From positions 1 to 32,715 of the forward strand of contig JAOUMB010000032.1 in NCBI GenBank assembly GCA_029881725.1: a DNA stretch of 32,715 bases, written 5' to 3'. The translations under genes were made by a program, and so were the position numbers. Source of the stretch: Nitrospirota bacterium (lineage in GTDB: Bacteria; Nitrospirota; JACRHL01). Below the pieces are notes generated by a model that did no database searches, was not told the origin of the DNA, and worked only from the letters and a program-made list of their open reading frames with translations. Below, piece after piece: positions 453 through 7,430 of the stretch; position 1 is the first letter of the stretch; each line of letters starts with the position of its first letter.

Positions 453-482
453 AAAAAAACGGGCCGTCGACTCGACCCGTTT
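453..482 (-). terminator. Intrinsic terminator read leftwards
   Basis: On the minus strand a stem AAACGGG/CCCGTTT (482-476 with 463-457) with a 12-base loop is followed by a run of seven T (459-453). It has the form of a Rho-independent terminator for leftward transcription. No protein gene lies upstream on that strand, so it most likely ends the candidate RNA next to it. On the plus strand only three T follow the stem, so it is probably one-directional. Confidence 0.7.
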
Positions 483-708
483 GCCGTTCGCAGAGGGTTA
501 TTCCCATCGCCCGAGGGGAGCGTAAGGCCTTGCCGCCCGAGGCCCTTCCGGGACCCACACCCCCTCGCATGGGTTCCGCGTAGCGAGTGGCCATCACGGC
601 CGTTGGTCCGGAACGTTTCCCGGACCCGGTATCCGCCCGGTCATCGGGCTCCCCCGGAGTCAAACCGGGAGATTCGCGCCCCCCTCACGGGTCCTTTCGG
701 CCCGCTTC
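453..708 (-). ncRNA. Candidate structured non-coding RNA, about 255 nt
   Basis: The minus strand between a TACTAT hexamer (720-715) and the terminator at 482-453 is very GC-rich and carries a series of hairpins in order. They are 704-688 (GAAA tetraloop, one bulged A), 671-649, 649-635 (GCCCG/CGGGC), 626-605 (perfect 7-bp arms GGTCCGG/CCGGACC), 601-589, 587-564 and 544-526 (GGCCT/AGGCC), then the terminator. No open frame here resembles a protein. I compared it from memory with 6S RNA, tmRNA, SRP RNA, RNase P RNA and common riboswitches and found no convincing match. It could be a divergent member of a known class. GC-rich DNA folds easily, so only comparison with homologues would prove selection on structure. 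Confidence 0.4.
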
Positions 709-714
709 CTACCT

Positions 715-745
715 ATAGTATTCCACCGGAATCGTCTCGCATCAA
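715..745 (-). promoter_or_regulatory. Weak promoter candidate for the minus-strand RNA
   Basis: Reading leftwards there is TTGATG (745-740), a 19-base spacer, then TACTAT (720-715), in a locally AT-richer stretch. The spacer is two bases longer than the sigma-70 optimum, so this is a weak match. It would start a transcript at about 708, just before the hairpin series. Confidence 0.3.
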
Positions 746-1119
746 GAGACATAACCCACTGACAAACATAATGTTTTTCGAATTTATGGTGCACACATCC
801 AGCCCCCCTTCCGGCCCCCCCGGCCATGGGAAGGCAACGCACAAAGGGCCCTTGGCAGCCCTCCTCTCCTCGCCGGGACGCACCCGCCGAACCCGACCCA
901 CCCGCGCCCGCTAGCGCGCCCTTTCCGCCAGATTTGTATGGGGCGATACTGCGCCCTTGCACCCAGGATGCATGATGCCTTATGTCATACCCAGCGCAGA
1001 CACCTGTCATGGGGAGTGGTGGCGCGCGGTGAAGTGCCTAAACCGCTGTTCCGGGTGGATGCGTCACTCCGCAACCGGGTGGCTTGGCATGGGAGGCCGA
1101 ACTGTGCCAAGGTTGCCCC
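746..1119. other. Intergenic region upstream of nnrS
   Basis: No convincing gene is seen. A GC-rich dyad with arms CCTTCC/GGAAGG lies at 807-834. The sequence AGGATGCAT at about 965-973 resembles one half of the binding site of the nitric-oxide sensor NsrR, but the second half is absent. No clear FNR or DNR box was found. Confidence 0.4.
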
Positions 1120-2334
1120 ATGCAGATGCACACCCCACATGGGGCCTCCCATCGACCCTGGCTGCACCTGATGGACGCGCCGTTGCGGCCGCTGTTTTTC
1201 GGCGCCGCCCTGGCCGCCCTGGAAGGCATGGCCATGTGGCTGGCGGAACTGAACGGCATGGCCACGCCGCGTGGCCATCTGGGGCCGTTCTGGCACCTGC
1301 ACGAAATGATGTTCGGGTATGTGGCCGCGGCCATGGGGGGCTTCCTGCTCACCGCCGTGCCCGGCTGGACCGATACCGCACCCCTGTCCGGACGCCCGGT
1401 GGCACTGCTGGCGGGGCTGTGGCTGCTGGGAAGGGTGGCCGTGTGGTTGCCCGGCCTGCCAAGCGGGGTGGTGGCGGCCTGTGACCTGGCGTTTCTGACG
1501 GCGCTCACGGTGGCTCTGGCCATACCGGTGGGCCGCACTGGCGGCCTGCGCAGCAACGTGGTGGTGCCGGTGCTGGCAATCATGGCCGTGGCCAACCTGC
1601 TCTGGCACCTTCAAACCGCCGGGTTCGCCACCGCGCCGGCGGGCATCGCACTGGCCCTGGGCATGACCGTGTTCGCCATGACCTACATCGGCGGGCGCAT
1701 CATCCCCCACTTCACCCATCGGGTGACCATGCGCGAAATTCCCGAGCGCCCGTGGCTGGACGCCGCATGCAACGGGTCGGTGCTGGTGTGGGCAGTACTC
1801 CATACGGCCCTGCCCGGGGGCACATGGTCGGCCACGGCGGCGCTGCTGGCCGCACTGGCAAACGGGATGCGGCTGGCGGGCTGGCTCCATCCCAGAGCGC
1901 TCACCTGCGCCCTCACCTGGGTGCTGCATGCGGCCAGCGTCTGGCTGGTGACGGGGCTGCTGTTAACCGCCGGGGCCGACTTCGGCCTGCTGCCGCCGGG
2001 GGCGGGCATCCACGGGCTAACGGTGGGCGCCATCGGCCTGATGACCCTTGGCGTCATGAGCCGCGCCGCGCTGGGTCACACCGGACGGGTGGTGACCGCG
2101 CCCGCGGGCATGGGCGTGGCGTTTGCGCTGGTGTTCACGGCGGCCCTGGTGAGGGTGGGGCTGCCGCTGGCCGCCGGCCACCTGTATGGGGTCGCGTTGA
2201 ACCTCTCCGGCCTGTTGTGGATGGCCGGATTCGGCATCTATCTGTGGGTATACACGCCGATTCTGCTGGGCCCGGAGCCCCGCGCGGCAGAGGAATCCGC
2301 GCTGCCGCGGGCGGGCGGCAGGGGTCAGGTGTAG
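1120..2334 (+). CDS. nnrS: NnrS family heme/copper membrane protein
   Basis: This 404-residue polytopic inner-membrane protein has about twelve hydrophobic segments. The N-terminal pattern is typical of NnrS: an APLRPLFFG segment, then a WHLHEMMFGY stretch with family-conserved histidines, then GGFLLTAVPGWTDT. Later segments carry THRVTMREIP and LGVMSRAALGHTGR, also family-like. NnrS proteins bind heme and copper and are linked to tolerance of nitrosative stress during denitrification. ATG 1120 is preferred because AAGG lies seven bases upstream; an in-frame TTG at 1084 and ATG at 1126 are alternatives. No denitrification genes are nearby. Its stop overlaps the end of the convergent sulfotransferase gene by ten bases. 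Confidence 0.9.
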   Translation: MQMHTPHGASHRPWLHLMDAPLRPLFFGAALAALEGMAMWLAELNGMATPRGHLGPFWHLHEMMFGYVAAAMGGFLLTAVPGWTDTAPLSGRPVALLAGLWLLGRVAVWLPGLPSGVVAACDLAFLTALTVALAIPVGRTGGLRSNVVVPVLAIMAVANLLWHLQTAGFATAPAGIALALGMTVFAMTYIGGRIIPHFTHRVTMREIPERPWLDAACNGSVLVWAVLHTALPGGTWSATAALLAALANGMRLAGWLHPRALTCALTWVLHAASVWLVTGLLLTAGADFGLLPPGAGIHGLTVGAIGLMTLGVMSRAALGHTGRVVTAPAGMGVAFALVFTAALVRVGLPLAAGHLYGVALNLSGLLWMAGFGIYLWVYTPILLGPEPRAAEESALPRAGGRGQV

Positions 2335-3095
2335 CCCAGAAAATCCAGCATCGGAGCGAAGCGCGCGTTGAACTGCCGCTCAATGTCATCCCCCAGATGG
2401 GCAAGGCTCTGCCCGCTGCCCCCCTGATTGACAAAACGCCCCCCCTTGGCACGGGCGTCCTCATTGATCGCAGACACCTGGCTGTCCGTGTCCATCTCAC
2501 GCTCCAGGTCCTCCATCCTGCGCATACTGTCCATGGACGAGGCCTCCACTGCGCGGGCAATGCGGACCTCGTCCGCCTTCCCACCATCGATCAGCCGGGC
2601 CACGCGCACCATCTGCCCGTGGGGGTCGGCCTTCAGGTCCTCATAGCGCAAGATCACTCCTGGAAAACGGGTGAGTGCGGACAGCCATCCGGCCGTGTTT
2701 CCAGGCCAGGTACCGATGCCGCCGCCAATCCACGACTCGACTCCCATGTGTTGAATGAAATGCTCGGCAAACGCCTGGGCATCGAACTCCCCGGAAGTGG
2801 ACAGCCGCGCATAGTTGAGGTTGCTTAGCAACACGTCCTTCGGGTGGCGAACCACATACACAAAGCCGTGGGTGCGGTCCATGAATGGATGGTTCGGGCC
2901 GGGCATCAGGTGGGTTTTGACAAACATCTGATCCGTCCCCTGGGGAGCGCTCAGGCGGGGGCCGTGGTGTATATCCGGGATTTTATCCCCCACCTGGGCA
3001 CTGGTTTCCGGGGGGCCATACAGATAGCTGTACACCAGAAACCGCAGCCAGGTGTTGCCACTTTCGGGGTAGGAGGCAAGCCACACAATACGCAT
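2325..3095 (-). CDS. Sulfotransferase paralogue lacking the PAPS-loop lysine
   Basis: This 256-residue protein belongs to the PAPS-dependent sulfotransferase family, which moves sulfate from PAPS to an acceptor hydroxyl or amine. Visible motifs are the 5'-phosphosulfate loop (SYPESGNTW, residues 8-16), a KTH motif (60-62), the 3'-phosphate segment VRHPKDVLLSN (R83, S91) and RYEDLK near 150. The loop lysine, conserved and catalytically important in the family, is Glu at residue 11; the upstream paralogue has Lys there. This copy may therefore be impaired or have another role. ATG 3095 has GGAG seven bases upstream and aligns with the paralogue; the TTG at 3110 is less likely. It is the last gene of a four-gene minus-strand run. 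The acceptor is unknown. Confidence 0.85.
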   Translation of the reverse strand: MRIVWLASYPESGNTWLRFLVYSYLYGPPETSAQVGDKIPDIHHGPRLSAPQGTDQMFVKTHLMPGPNHPFMDRTHGFVYVVRHPKDVLLSNLNYARLSTSGEFDAQAFAEHFIQHMGVESWIGGGIGTWPGNTAGWLSALTRFPGVILRYEDLKADPHGQMVRVARLIDGGKADEVRIARAVEASSMDSMRRMEDLEREMDTDSQVSAINEDARAKGGRFVNQGGSGQSLAHLGDDIERQFNARFAPMLDFLGYT

Positions 3096-3110
3096 CGAAA
3101 CACTCCGCAA

Positions 3111-3635
3111 TCAGGATATGGTGTCAGCACCGCGCACGGCGCGCTGATAGCGCCCCAGCAGGCCGGCATCGTCAATCGAGCCATGGTGGTGCACCTGCCG
3201 CCAGCACCGGGTGGTTTCTCCTTCCACCCGGGCAAACACGCGGCTGGTGCGGATGTGCAACGGAATGACGGTCTCCCCCAAAACAAATTCCCCGGTCTCG
3301 CGCCCGGCGAAGGCAATCATATCGCCACCCTCGAAGGCGACGACGTCGGAAAACGCCACCCACACGCGGGCCGGACCGTGAAACACCCTGGCATACAGTT
3401 CGGTGATCGGACCGATCCCGCGCAGGATCCCGCCCAGGGGATTGTTCAGCTGGACCAGCGGCGCGTCCGCCCACACCGCCGCCAGCAGGGTATCGTCGCG
3501 CCGGTTGAAGGCGTGGTAAAAGCTCTCCAGCGCAGCCAGGGCACCGTCCAAGCCGGGAGCGGCGGCATCTTTCAGGCGGTTGGCGGCCTCACGGCCGAAT
3601 TCGCCGGGCACGGGCGTGCCGTGGAGGGAGGTCAT
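3111..3635 (-). CDS. NTF2-like (SnoaL/DUF4440-type) protein
   Basis: This 174-residue soluble protein has the pattern of an NTF2-like fold. A helix reads ALESFYHAFNRRDDTLLAAVWAD, followed by a GI(L/G)P(I/L)T-type helix and beta strands rich in aromatics, including RVWVAFSDVVAFEG and the late strand CWRQVHHHGSID. Such proteins are small enzymes or ligand-binding partners, for example isomerases, cyclases or association domains; the substrate cannot be read from sequence. The ATG overlaps the stop of the upstream sulfotransferase in an ATGA arrangement, so the two are probably translationally coupled. The next sulfotransferase starts 15 bases downstream. Sandwiching between two sulfotransferases suggests a role in the same modification step, which is inference. 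Confidence 0.75.
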   Translation of the reverse strand: MTSLHGTPVPGEFGREAANRLKDAAAPGLDGALAALESFYHAFNRRDDTLLAAVWADAPLVQLNNPLGGILRGIGPITELYARVFHGPARVWVAFSDVVAFEGGDMIAFAGRETGEFVLGETVIPLHIRTSRVFARVEGETTRCWRQVHHHGSIDDAGLLGRYQRAVRGADTIS

Positions 3636-4399
3636 GCGTACCCCAACAGGCCCATGGCCTCACCAAAGCGCTTTTCAAAGGCGTCTTCCACTTCCGCCCC
3701 CAGGTGCGCAAGACTCTGTCCGGACAGGCCCTTGTTGACGAAGCGCTGCTCCGCGCCGCCGGTTTTGGCGTCGATGTGAAATACGACGCTTTCCTCCCCC
3801 TTTTTTCGCTCACGGCGCTCCATCCTGCTCATGCTGGACAGGGAAGAGGCCGCGACCGCCCTGCGCACCCGCTCCGGATCGGCCGTGCCCTCGATGAATT
3901 CGGCCACGCGGGTCATGTGGGTTTCGGGATCGGACTTCAAATCCTCATAGCGCAGCACCAGGCTGGGCATGCGCGGCACCCCGTCCATCCAGGACGCGGC
4001 ATGCTGCACCCAGTTTCCCATGCCCAAGTCGATCCACTGGGGAGCGCCCAGCCGCTCGATATAGGTTCTGGCAAAGGCCACCTCGTCAAATCGCCCTTCT
4101 GCATGCATGCGGTAGAAGTTCAGGTTGCTCAGCAACACGTCCTTCGGGTGGCGCAACACATAGATGAATCCGGCGGTGAACTGCGCAAGCGGGTGCTGAG
4201 GCCCAAGCAGGAAGTGGCTCTTGATGAACACCCGGTTCGCGTTCTCTGGCGGCTGGTAGCCGCCCATGGCGTGAATATCCGGAATAGTTTGGGCCACCTG
4301 ATTACTGCCCTCGGGTTCCCCGTACAGGTAGCTGTAGATCAGAAACCGCAACCAGGTGTTGCCGCTCTTGGGGTACGAGGCGAGCCACACAACGCGCAT
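3632..4399 (-). CDS. PAPS-dependent sulfotransferase, intact motifs
   Basis: This 255-residue protein shows the full sulfotransferase set: the PAPS loop SYPKSGNTW (residues 8-16, K11), KSH (60-62), the 3'-phosphate segment LRHPKDVLLSN (R83, S91), RYEDLK near 150, and a C-terminal FVNKGLSGQSLAHL element in place of the usual RKG-GDW motif. Motif positions coincide exactly with those of the downstream paralogue, so the pair arose by duplication. ATG 4399 is chosen by alignment with that paralogue and an AAGGA about ten bases upstream; a TTG at 4423 is the alternative. It follows the TetR gene by about 57 bases on the same strand and overlaps the NTF2-like gene by four. No PAPS synthesis genes are present. 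The acceptor is unknown. Confidence 0.88.
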   Translation of the reverse strand: MRVVWLASYPKSGNTWLRFLIYSYLYGEPEGSNQVAQTIPDIHAMGGYQPPENANRVFIKSHFLLGPQHPLAQFTAGFIYVLRHPKDVLLSNLNFYRMHAEGRFDEVAFARTYIERLGAPQWIDLGMGNWVQHAASWMDGVPRMPSLVLRYEDLKSDPETHMTRVAEFIEGTADPERVRRAVAASSLSSMSRMERRERKKGEESVVFHIDAKTGGAEQRFVNKGLSGQSLAHLGAEVEDAFEKRFGEAMGLLGYA

Positions 4400-4456
4400 T
4401 TGCTCAAAATCCTTTTCACTCAATCCCGGCGGGTGCCGGTTACGGGCAAATCCCGT

Positions 4457-5636: not shown

Positions 5637-7430
5637 ATGGGCATCCACCCCATGCGCACAGCCTGTCTGTTTCTTGTCGTGGCCCTGTGGCTGCCGGGCG
5701 TGGTGCGCGCGGCGGACGTGAATACCGTGAACGACTCCGAAGGCACCGCCGCGCCTGAGTTTTTCAATCGGTTTGAATCGGCCCCCGCCTCCTGTACCGG
5801 GGCCAACACCGCCGCCGAACTCACCGCCCTTGAATCCGACCTGATCGGCATGGGACTCACCCCTTCCGCCACCATCGACATCGCATGCGGCGAGCGGGGT
5901 GCCGCAATTGCCGCAGCCGCCGCTGCGGGAACCCTCTTCGACTCCACCTGGAGCGACCTGCTGCACAATTATCAGGGCATCACCTTTGACCAATTCCGTG
6001 CTGATGGAAAATACATCACCGGCGGTGGCGACGCGTTTATTCCGGCGGGATGCTGGGGACCGGAGTGTGGTCACATGCTCAAGGGCGACAGCCAACAGTG
6101 GGATGTGAACGGGGACGGGGTCAACGACTTCTCCATGAACGACCAGTTCAGTTGGGGAACCACGTCATACATCGTGGACACCCGCTGGAATTCGCTGGTA
6201 TTGGACGCGGGCGGCTCCGGTATCAGCGGTATGGCTCCCGGGGTCACCCGCATGCTGATCCGGCAGGCCCTGGGCTCAGTCTCCTACGTCACCAAGGATT
6301 CCGGATCTCCCGATTCCGATCATTGCAGCGCAATCCTCAAATCCGGCCCGGTGGCCGACGATCCGTGCCGGGACGGCGTGATCGACTCCGTGGCCAACAC
6401 CGGGTCCGTGGACATCAACAGTGCCGACGTCGACCCCGACGTCTATGCCCGTTGCGACCCGGACTATTTCCACCCGGATACCCCGCCCGCCGCGTTCATC
6501 GCCGCGGGCCGCACCGATCCGGGCATTACCACAGTCGAGGAAGGGCAGCGGGCACTTTACAACTGCCTGATGCGCATTGCAGCCACGCCACTCACCGGGC
6601 CCGAGATCAAGGACAGTGGGGGCACCGTCCACTCTCCCCTGGAGGTAGGCGTGGATCTGGTGAACTTCTCCGGGACAGTTTTCGCCCCCAACGCGTACAG
6701 CAACACCAGCTTCGATCCGGGAATCAACGCCCGTGACCAATGGGTGGACCAGGTAGTGATCGGCTACATCGAGGATCAGCGTTGGGTGGACGCCCAGGTG
6801 GGCCTGCCATCCCAGCAGGATTATTCGCAAAAGCTCTATGCGGCAGCCGGGTTCCGGGGCTCCATTGATACCCTGCGCGCCAGCTATGTGAACGATACCC
6901 AGGTATCACAGATGGACCGGGACTGGGATCCCAACAACAACCTGCCCGGAAGCCCTTCCGCGGATACCTACAATTACGCGTTCCGGTTTGCCATCAGCAC
7001 CGCCAGTCCCCAGCGAACCGCTCCGTGTGACCCGGGAGTGGCACCTGACTGCGTGGGGCGCACCAACAACACACTGGACCCGCTTTGGGGCGGTGCCGCC
7101 TACAACGCGGGCACTGGGGAATACGACTTCAATCTCGACCTGGGATTTTTCAACAATCCAGCGACCCCCGGCCAAAGCGGCAACACGGATTTCGGCATCG
7201 GGCAGACCAACGATCTGGCGGAACTGGTGGCCCAGGACGTGGAGGGGTATCTGTTCTCCTGCCTCAACTGCGACACCCCGGAACTGACCGCCTCGGGCGG
7301 ATCCACCTGGTGGCAATCCTATTTCGATGCCAACCGGGCGACCGTGGAAGTGGTCGATTTGCCCACATTCCAGCCATTTATCCTGGATTGGAATACGGTC
7401 CCCAGCATTCTGCACGCGCCGACTCCGTAA
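5637..7430 (+). CDS. Secreted protein of unknown family, 597 aa
   Basis: I do not recognise the family. A signal peptide is clear: a short basic start, a hydrophobic core (LFLVVALWLP) and a cleavage-like VRAAD. The mature part is acidic and rich in Gly, Asn and Asp, with well over ten cysteines, including CWGPEC and CLNC pairs, as expected for a disulfide-bonded exported protein. DVNGDGVND near residue 158 fits a DxNxDGxxD calcium-binding loop like those in dockerins and EF-hands. There is no C-terminal membrane anchor or sorting signal that I can see. ATG 5637 has AAGGA seven bases upstream. The next gene starts 47 bases later and is functionally unrelated. Confidence 0.8.
   Translation: MGIHPMRTACLFLVVALWLPGVVRAADVNTVNDSEGTAAPEFFNRFESAPASCTGANTAAELTALESDLIGMGLTPSATIDIACGERGAAIAAAAAAGTLFDSTWSDLLHNYQGITFDQFRADGKYITGGGDAFIPAGCWGPECGHMLKGDSQQWDVNGDGVNDFSMNDQFSWGTTSYIVDTRWNSLVLDAGGSGISGMAPGVTRMLIRQALGSVSYVTKDSGSPDSDHCSAILKSGPVADDPCRDGVIDSVANTGSVDINSADVDPDVYARCDPDYFHPDTPPAAFIAAGRTDPGITTVEEGQRALYNCLMRIAATPLTGPEIKDSGGTVHSPLEVGVDLVNFSGTVFAPNAYSNTSFDPGINARDQWVDQVVIGYIEDQRWVDAQVGLPSQQDYSQKLYAAAGFRGSIDTLRASYVNDTQVSQMDRDWDPNNNLPGSPSADTYNYAFRFAISTASPQRTAPCDPGVAPDCVGRTNNTLDPLWGGAAYNAGTGEYDFNLDLGFFNNPATPGQSGNTDFGIGQTNDLAELVAQDVEGYLFSCLNCDTPELTASGGSTWWQSYFDANRATVEVVDLPTFQPFILDWNTVPSILHAPTP

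Follow-up and report, generated by a model that had tools for sequence, protein, structure and literature searches.

A candidate standalone structured RNA gene in one family-level lineage of Nitrospirota

Organization of the candidate RNA element and its surroundings

The window analysed here, 32,715 nt long, is a whole contig of a 2.96-Mb draft Nitrospirota genome (G000). Near one end it carries a candidate RNA element of about 256 nt on the minus strand (approximately 708–453), located between the contig edge and the divergent nnrS gene (1084–2334, plus strand; Pfam NnrS, E 3.8e-91 for 1120–2331), for which the TTG start that is listed may be too far upstream. Beyond nnrS, two sulfotransferase-domain genes flank a SnoaL-like gene on the minus strand (2325–4423), the SnoaL-like protein having a relative with 65% identity over 164 residues on the homologous contig of a second genome, G003 (JAOUFN01, Nitrospirota bacterium 4_1_July_SF_Bin45). 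A plus-strand ORF of 597 aa (5637–7430) has a signal-peptide-like start by eye and no Pfam match. Copies of the RNA element were found in G003 and in a third genome, G001 (JACRHL01, Nitrospirae bacterium NC_groundwater_1776_Pr3_B-0.1um_70_102), and the features below are given for the window with reference to these two.

A preliminary description of this stretch had proposed a structured RNA unit of about 255 nt with a weak −35/−10 pair with a 19-base spacer. Such a promoter-like pair, TTGATG and TACTAT separated by 19 nt (745–740 and 720–715, minus strand), was indeed read directly in the sequence, and from it the RNA would be expected to start near position 708. A consensus promoter scan of positions 1–1200, which allowed only spacers of 16–18 nt, reported no promoter. 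The promoter-like upstream motif differs between the three copies, all of which have GGTGG shortly 5′ of the −10-like hexamer; the promoter is the weakest part of the RNA-gene reading.

From the 5′ end, the minus-strand RNA is predicted to begin with hairpin 1 (687–705; GCGGGCC-GAAA-GG-A-CCCGT), the GAAA-capped stem of the preliminary description, in which CC-GAAA-GG lies inside CGGG/CCCG and which was kept in all three copies. It is followed by the 5′ strand of a closing helix, P2 (GAGGGGGGCG, 677–686), which pairs over 10 bp with its 3′ strand (CGCTCCCCTC, 513–522), the latter being followed by GGGCG (GGGYG across the three copies). Within P2 lie P3 (651–671), with CCCGG/CCGGG in the window versus CCCAT/ATGGG in G001; the tentative P4 (635–649; GCCCG/CGGGC); P5 (605–626), the perfect 7-bp stem GGTCCGG/CCGGACC that had been reported, strong in the window; P6 (589–601), with a GTGAT loop and a conserved TCGCTAC after it, in the window and G003 only; P7 (550–577), present in the window, poorly preserved in G003 and absent from G001; and P8 (524–547; AAGGGCCT/AGGCCTT), present in the window and G003 and absent from G001. 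The run of seven hairpins that had been described was thus found again, but not as a simply consecutive series, as P2 (686–677 with 522–513) encloses six of the seven in one multi-branched domain.

The unit ends in an intrinsic terminator (453–482, minus strand) that was detected by a terminator scan, with a 10-pair stem at 482–457 and, as previously noted, seven T (459–453). T-run terminators, each a hairpin followed by T residues, close all three copies (seven T in the window, six in G003 and eight in G001). The scanned 1.2 kb held three terminator-like sites against 1.4 expected in shuffles, the two further ones being at 123–100 on the minus strand and at 161–175 on the plus strand. The contig edge is reached about 450 bases downstream of the terminator of the RNA (region 1–452).

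Homologues, conserved core and folding

A DNA search of 61 genomes returned mostly chance matches and one weak match (E 0.016) in G003, of the same family as the window's genome. This match lies approximately 2–2.2 kb from the G003 nnrS orthologue, the two being oriented to each other as they are in the window, and the alignment of the two copies has a mean column identity of 79% over the element. A covariance model built from the window and G003 (R1), searched with strict filters over 395 genomes of the phylum, matched three of them, the window's own, G003 and G001 (E 1.1e-7), with one match per genome; G003 and G001 each belong to a further genus of the family that includes the window's genome. 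This family has a fourth genus, represented by G002 (540 contigs, completeness 91%), in which neither R1 nor a three-sequence model (R2), run with laxer filters over 40 genomes, found a match. R2 recovered the three known copies and five further matches in four genomes (E 0.19–0.90), and the four of these five alignments that were inspected were attributed to chance, their closing helix being broken or the signature sequence absent. A pattern scan of the genome collection returned nine stretches, two of which were model matches; the other seven, including one in the G003 record but on a different contig, were taken as chance. No match to the element was found in the plasmid collection searched, nor any in the viral contigs searched, and a repeated or mobile element was rejected because the window's own genome contains one full copy. 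As far as searched, the sequences point to an RNA family restricted to one family-level lineage of Nitrospirota.

We evaluated the fold in a three-sequence alignment fitted to R1, with 54 consensus pairs and 139 pair cells, in which the position of the G001 row was set by the very model that this row is used to support. Standard pairs occupied 128 of the 139 cells (92%), as compared with 34–59% in slid controls, while both sides had changed in 13 of the 54 pairs, as compared with one or two when the partners were slid by 1–3 columns. None of 500 shuffles reached any of the five pairing measures observed, a comparison that draws on three sequences only, so that covariation has little power here. 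Hairpin 1, P2 and P3 had the best support. In hairpin 1 all cells were paired and three of the seven pairs had changed on both sides, the stem reading GCGGG/CCCGY in the window and G003 versus GGGAA/UUCCU in G001, with three compensatory changes; its mean pair probability was 0.97 in the window, 0.99 in G003 and 0.61 in G001. P2 was likewise paired in every cell of the three copies, with 8 of its 10 pairs invariant and one changed on both sides, and had mean pair probabilities of 0.95 in the window, 0.42 in G003 and 1.0 in G001; the free fold of G003 was 0.8 kcal/mol better without it. P3 covaried between the window and G001, with two pairs changed on both sides, and in G003 it forms one register shifted.

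The inner branches were less uniform. P4 had three both-side-changed pairs in the model alignment, but in G001 and G003 the unconstrained fold favours different partners for these bases. P5, with a mean pair probability of 1.0 in the window, was not preserved in this form in G003 and left only a short remnant in G001. P6 showed one C-G to T-A change between the window and G003 and was absent from G001, 71% of the P7 cells were paired in G003, and P8 swapped among G-C, G-U and A-U pairs with low mean pair probabilities (0.32 in the window and 0.0 in G003). Since forcing all consensus pairs costs approximately 30 kcal/mol in G003 and 14 kcal/mol in G001, the inner branches are uncertain. Taken together, the comparison suggests that hairpin 1, P2 and P3 form a supported core, while P4–P8 are tentative.

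The minus-strand fold of 720–453 had an energy of −137.8 kcal/mol (z −3.4), a stability reached by none of 200 dinucleotide shuffles, and the copies in G001 and G003 had z values of −4.1 and −2.8, respectively. Once GC content was regressed out, none of the 486 tiles covering the whole window on both strands was more stable than the element, while its plus-strand counterpart was ordinary, being beaten by 100 of the 486. G-U pairs made up 11 of the 139 pair cells, and as the opposite strand would have A-C at these positions, the minus strand is favoured. In the free fold of the window, the 5′ end of the RNA is paired to the 3′ terminator arm.

Catalogued RNAs and alternative readings

No Rfam 15 family exceeded its gathering cut-off in any part of the window. 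When 380–860 was scanned with relaxed settings, three chance-level matches appeared (E 0.34–8.1), all far below the cut-off; the best of them (E 0.34) covered part of an unrelated family and lay on the opposite strand. RNase P RNA (302 bits), 6S RNA (71 bits) and tmRNA (195 bits) were located on other contigs of the window's genome, and ARAGORN found no tRNA or tmRNA in the window. These results agree with the earlier statement that the element does not match the standard RNAs with which it had been compared; together with the homologues, their compensatory changes, the terminators of all three copies and the strand-specific fold, they support the candidate structured RNA with its own terminator that had been proposed, the searches having yielded covariation among homologues and no credible Rfam match. 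Several other readings were considered and set aside: a permuted tmRNA, suggested by the T-arm-like P3, because the genome has its own tmRNA; a retron-like element, since Pfam identified no reverse transcriptase among the nine proteins of the first 9 kb; and a protein-coding stretch, the ORFs at 307–663 and 660–1010 being without a Pfam match. The gaps in the alignment of the window with G003 (1, 1, 25, 2 and 2) are not triplets, which also argues that the element is not coding.

Judged by Rfam 15, the family is new, although RNAs of this general kind are known. We found no paper describing this RNA in the open-licence literature, a search that does not establish its absence from print. Two studies of intergenic RNA discovery (PMC11109978, PMC8632094) do not mention Nitrospirota or FKBP in their main text; the structured orphan RNAs presented there are, like the element, GC-rich, structured, intergenic and without an assigned function.

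Among the better-known classes, the Hfq-associated trans-acting sRNAs of enterobacteria are intergenic and end in an intrinsic terminator with a U tail. The element shares these traits and has a weak promoter-like site, but it exceeds them in size, most of its bases are paired, much of it forms a long multi-branched domain, and it lacks an accessible seed region conserved in all three copies. 6S RNA (RF00013) is a standalone structured RNA closed by a long helix and of similar size; the element, in contrast, is branched, whereas 6S RNA is a single bulged rod, and it does not match the 6S model, the genome having its own 6S RNA elsewhere.

The most probable of the alternatives, though still an unlikely one, is that the element is a cis-acting leader or attenuator, riboswitch-like, of the gene that follows it, its intrinsic terminator acting as the switch. 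The next same-strand gene in both G003 and G001 encodes an FKBP-type peptidyl-prolyl isomerase (L049:3746–4519), so that a structured RNA with a terminator lies upstream of this gene in two of the three carriers, the window contig ending before any downstream gene. In addition, the pairing between the RNA's 5′ end and its terminator in the window's free fold resembles an antiterminator, although by eye it has no counterpart in G001. The FKBP gene of the window's genome, however, is located on another contig with no copy of the RNA upstream. In G003 approximately 465 nt separate the RNA from the FKBP start, and the promoter-like TTGCCA-18-TACAAT read from the sequence between them suggests that the FKBP gene has its own start. 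Moreover, the neighbours differ, nnrS being a neighbour of the RNA in the window and G003 and the FKBP gene in G003 and G001. Because of these differing neighbours and the FKBP gene without an upstream RNA, the element is probably a standalone RNA gene, and we consider a leader unlikely.

Less likely still is a sponge of the CsrB/RsmZ type, in which GGA motifs within the hairpins would titrate CsrA. The CsrB/RsmZ family consists of intergenic hairpin arrays that end in a terminator, as the element does; CsrA is encoded in each of the three genomes examined (G000, G001 and G002), and the loop of hairpin 1 contains AAGGA in the window and G003. This site, however, is lost in G001 (AAGGG), and G002 encodes CsrA, yet no copy of the RNA was found there. 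The element differs from the family in its motif content, with one, two and three ANGGA sites in the window, G003 and G001 versus 1.2, 1.4 and 1.0 in shuffles, the three sites of G001 being equalled in 7.5% of the shuffles. It is this absence of a clear ANGGA enrichment that makes a CsrA sponge improbable.

Hairpins form easily in GC-rich DNA and there are three copies only, so the structure might reflect fortuitous hairpins in GC-rich intergenic DNA together with the terminator of an unrecognised gene; intergenic conservation between genera with compensatory changes, a strand-specific fold and a significant match in a third genus leave this reading very little room. Least credible of all is that the element is one of the universal RNAs (RNase P, tmRNA, 6S or SRP) in diverged form, which its size, multi-branched fold and single copy would suit: RNase P, 6S and tmRNA are all encoded elsewhere in the genome (SRP RNA was not located separately), and the best Rfam match to the element has an E value of 0.34.

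Proposed function of the candidate RNA gene

With a conserved predicted fold, a terminator in all three copies, a single copy per genome and no fixed neighbouring gene, the element is, in our judgement, likely to be a standalone non-coding RNA gene of a previously uncatalogued, lineage-restricted family. We infer that the RNA most likely acts in trans. It would be transcribed from the weak promoter-like site, released at the intrinsic terminator with a U tail, and would then serve as a trans-acting regulator. Hairpin 1 and the nearly invariant P2 could provide a stable scaffold and the site to which a partner binds. The partner might be a protein that contacts the U tail, as Hfq would, or a different RNA-binding protein, and the branches inside P2, which vary, might make lineage-specific contacts, for example by base pairing with mRNAs. 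This division into a core and variable branches, with its presumed partner and target, is offered tentatively as a mode of action. The Hfq gene is present in all three carriers (G000, G001 and G003), and searches of G002 found neither this gene nor the RNA; as G004, a genome without a match to the RNA models, also encodes Hfq, this evidence is permissive only and the link to Hfq is thin.

A more speculative and somewhat doubtful possibility is that Nitrospirota have a new class of structured RNAs, of which these three would be the first representatives. Its core would consist of hairpin 1, including the AAGG loop, the GAGGGGG/CCCCCUC helix, which hardly varies, and GGGYG as a tail. Such a core would be dedicated to binding a protein or sensing a ligand, with inner domains that can be exchanged, and the RNA would not be an ordinary base-pairing sRNA. 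A table in a review (PMC9029176) gives 3 annotated sRNAs for Nitrospirae versus 345 for Proteobacteria, and with so few non-coding RNAs on record for the phylum, a further probable RNA gene is of note. The candidate, defined in its strand and divided into a supported core and a variable domain, is a concrete object in uncultured groundwater bacteria, and a reading of the raw sequence picked up this apparent RNA gene where the family library had missed it.

The G001 copy lacks P6–P8. In the stretch after its P2 (L053:1393–1515) there is a hairpin that, by eye, has both GUGAUG and AUCGC in common with the sequence around P6 in the window and G003, and then approximately 90 nt of other structure ahead of the terminator; the inner domain of this copy has possibly moved outside P2.
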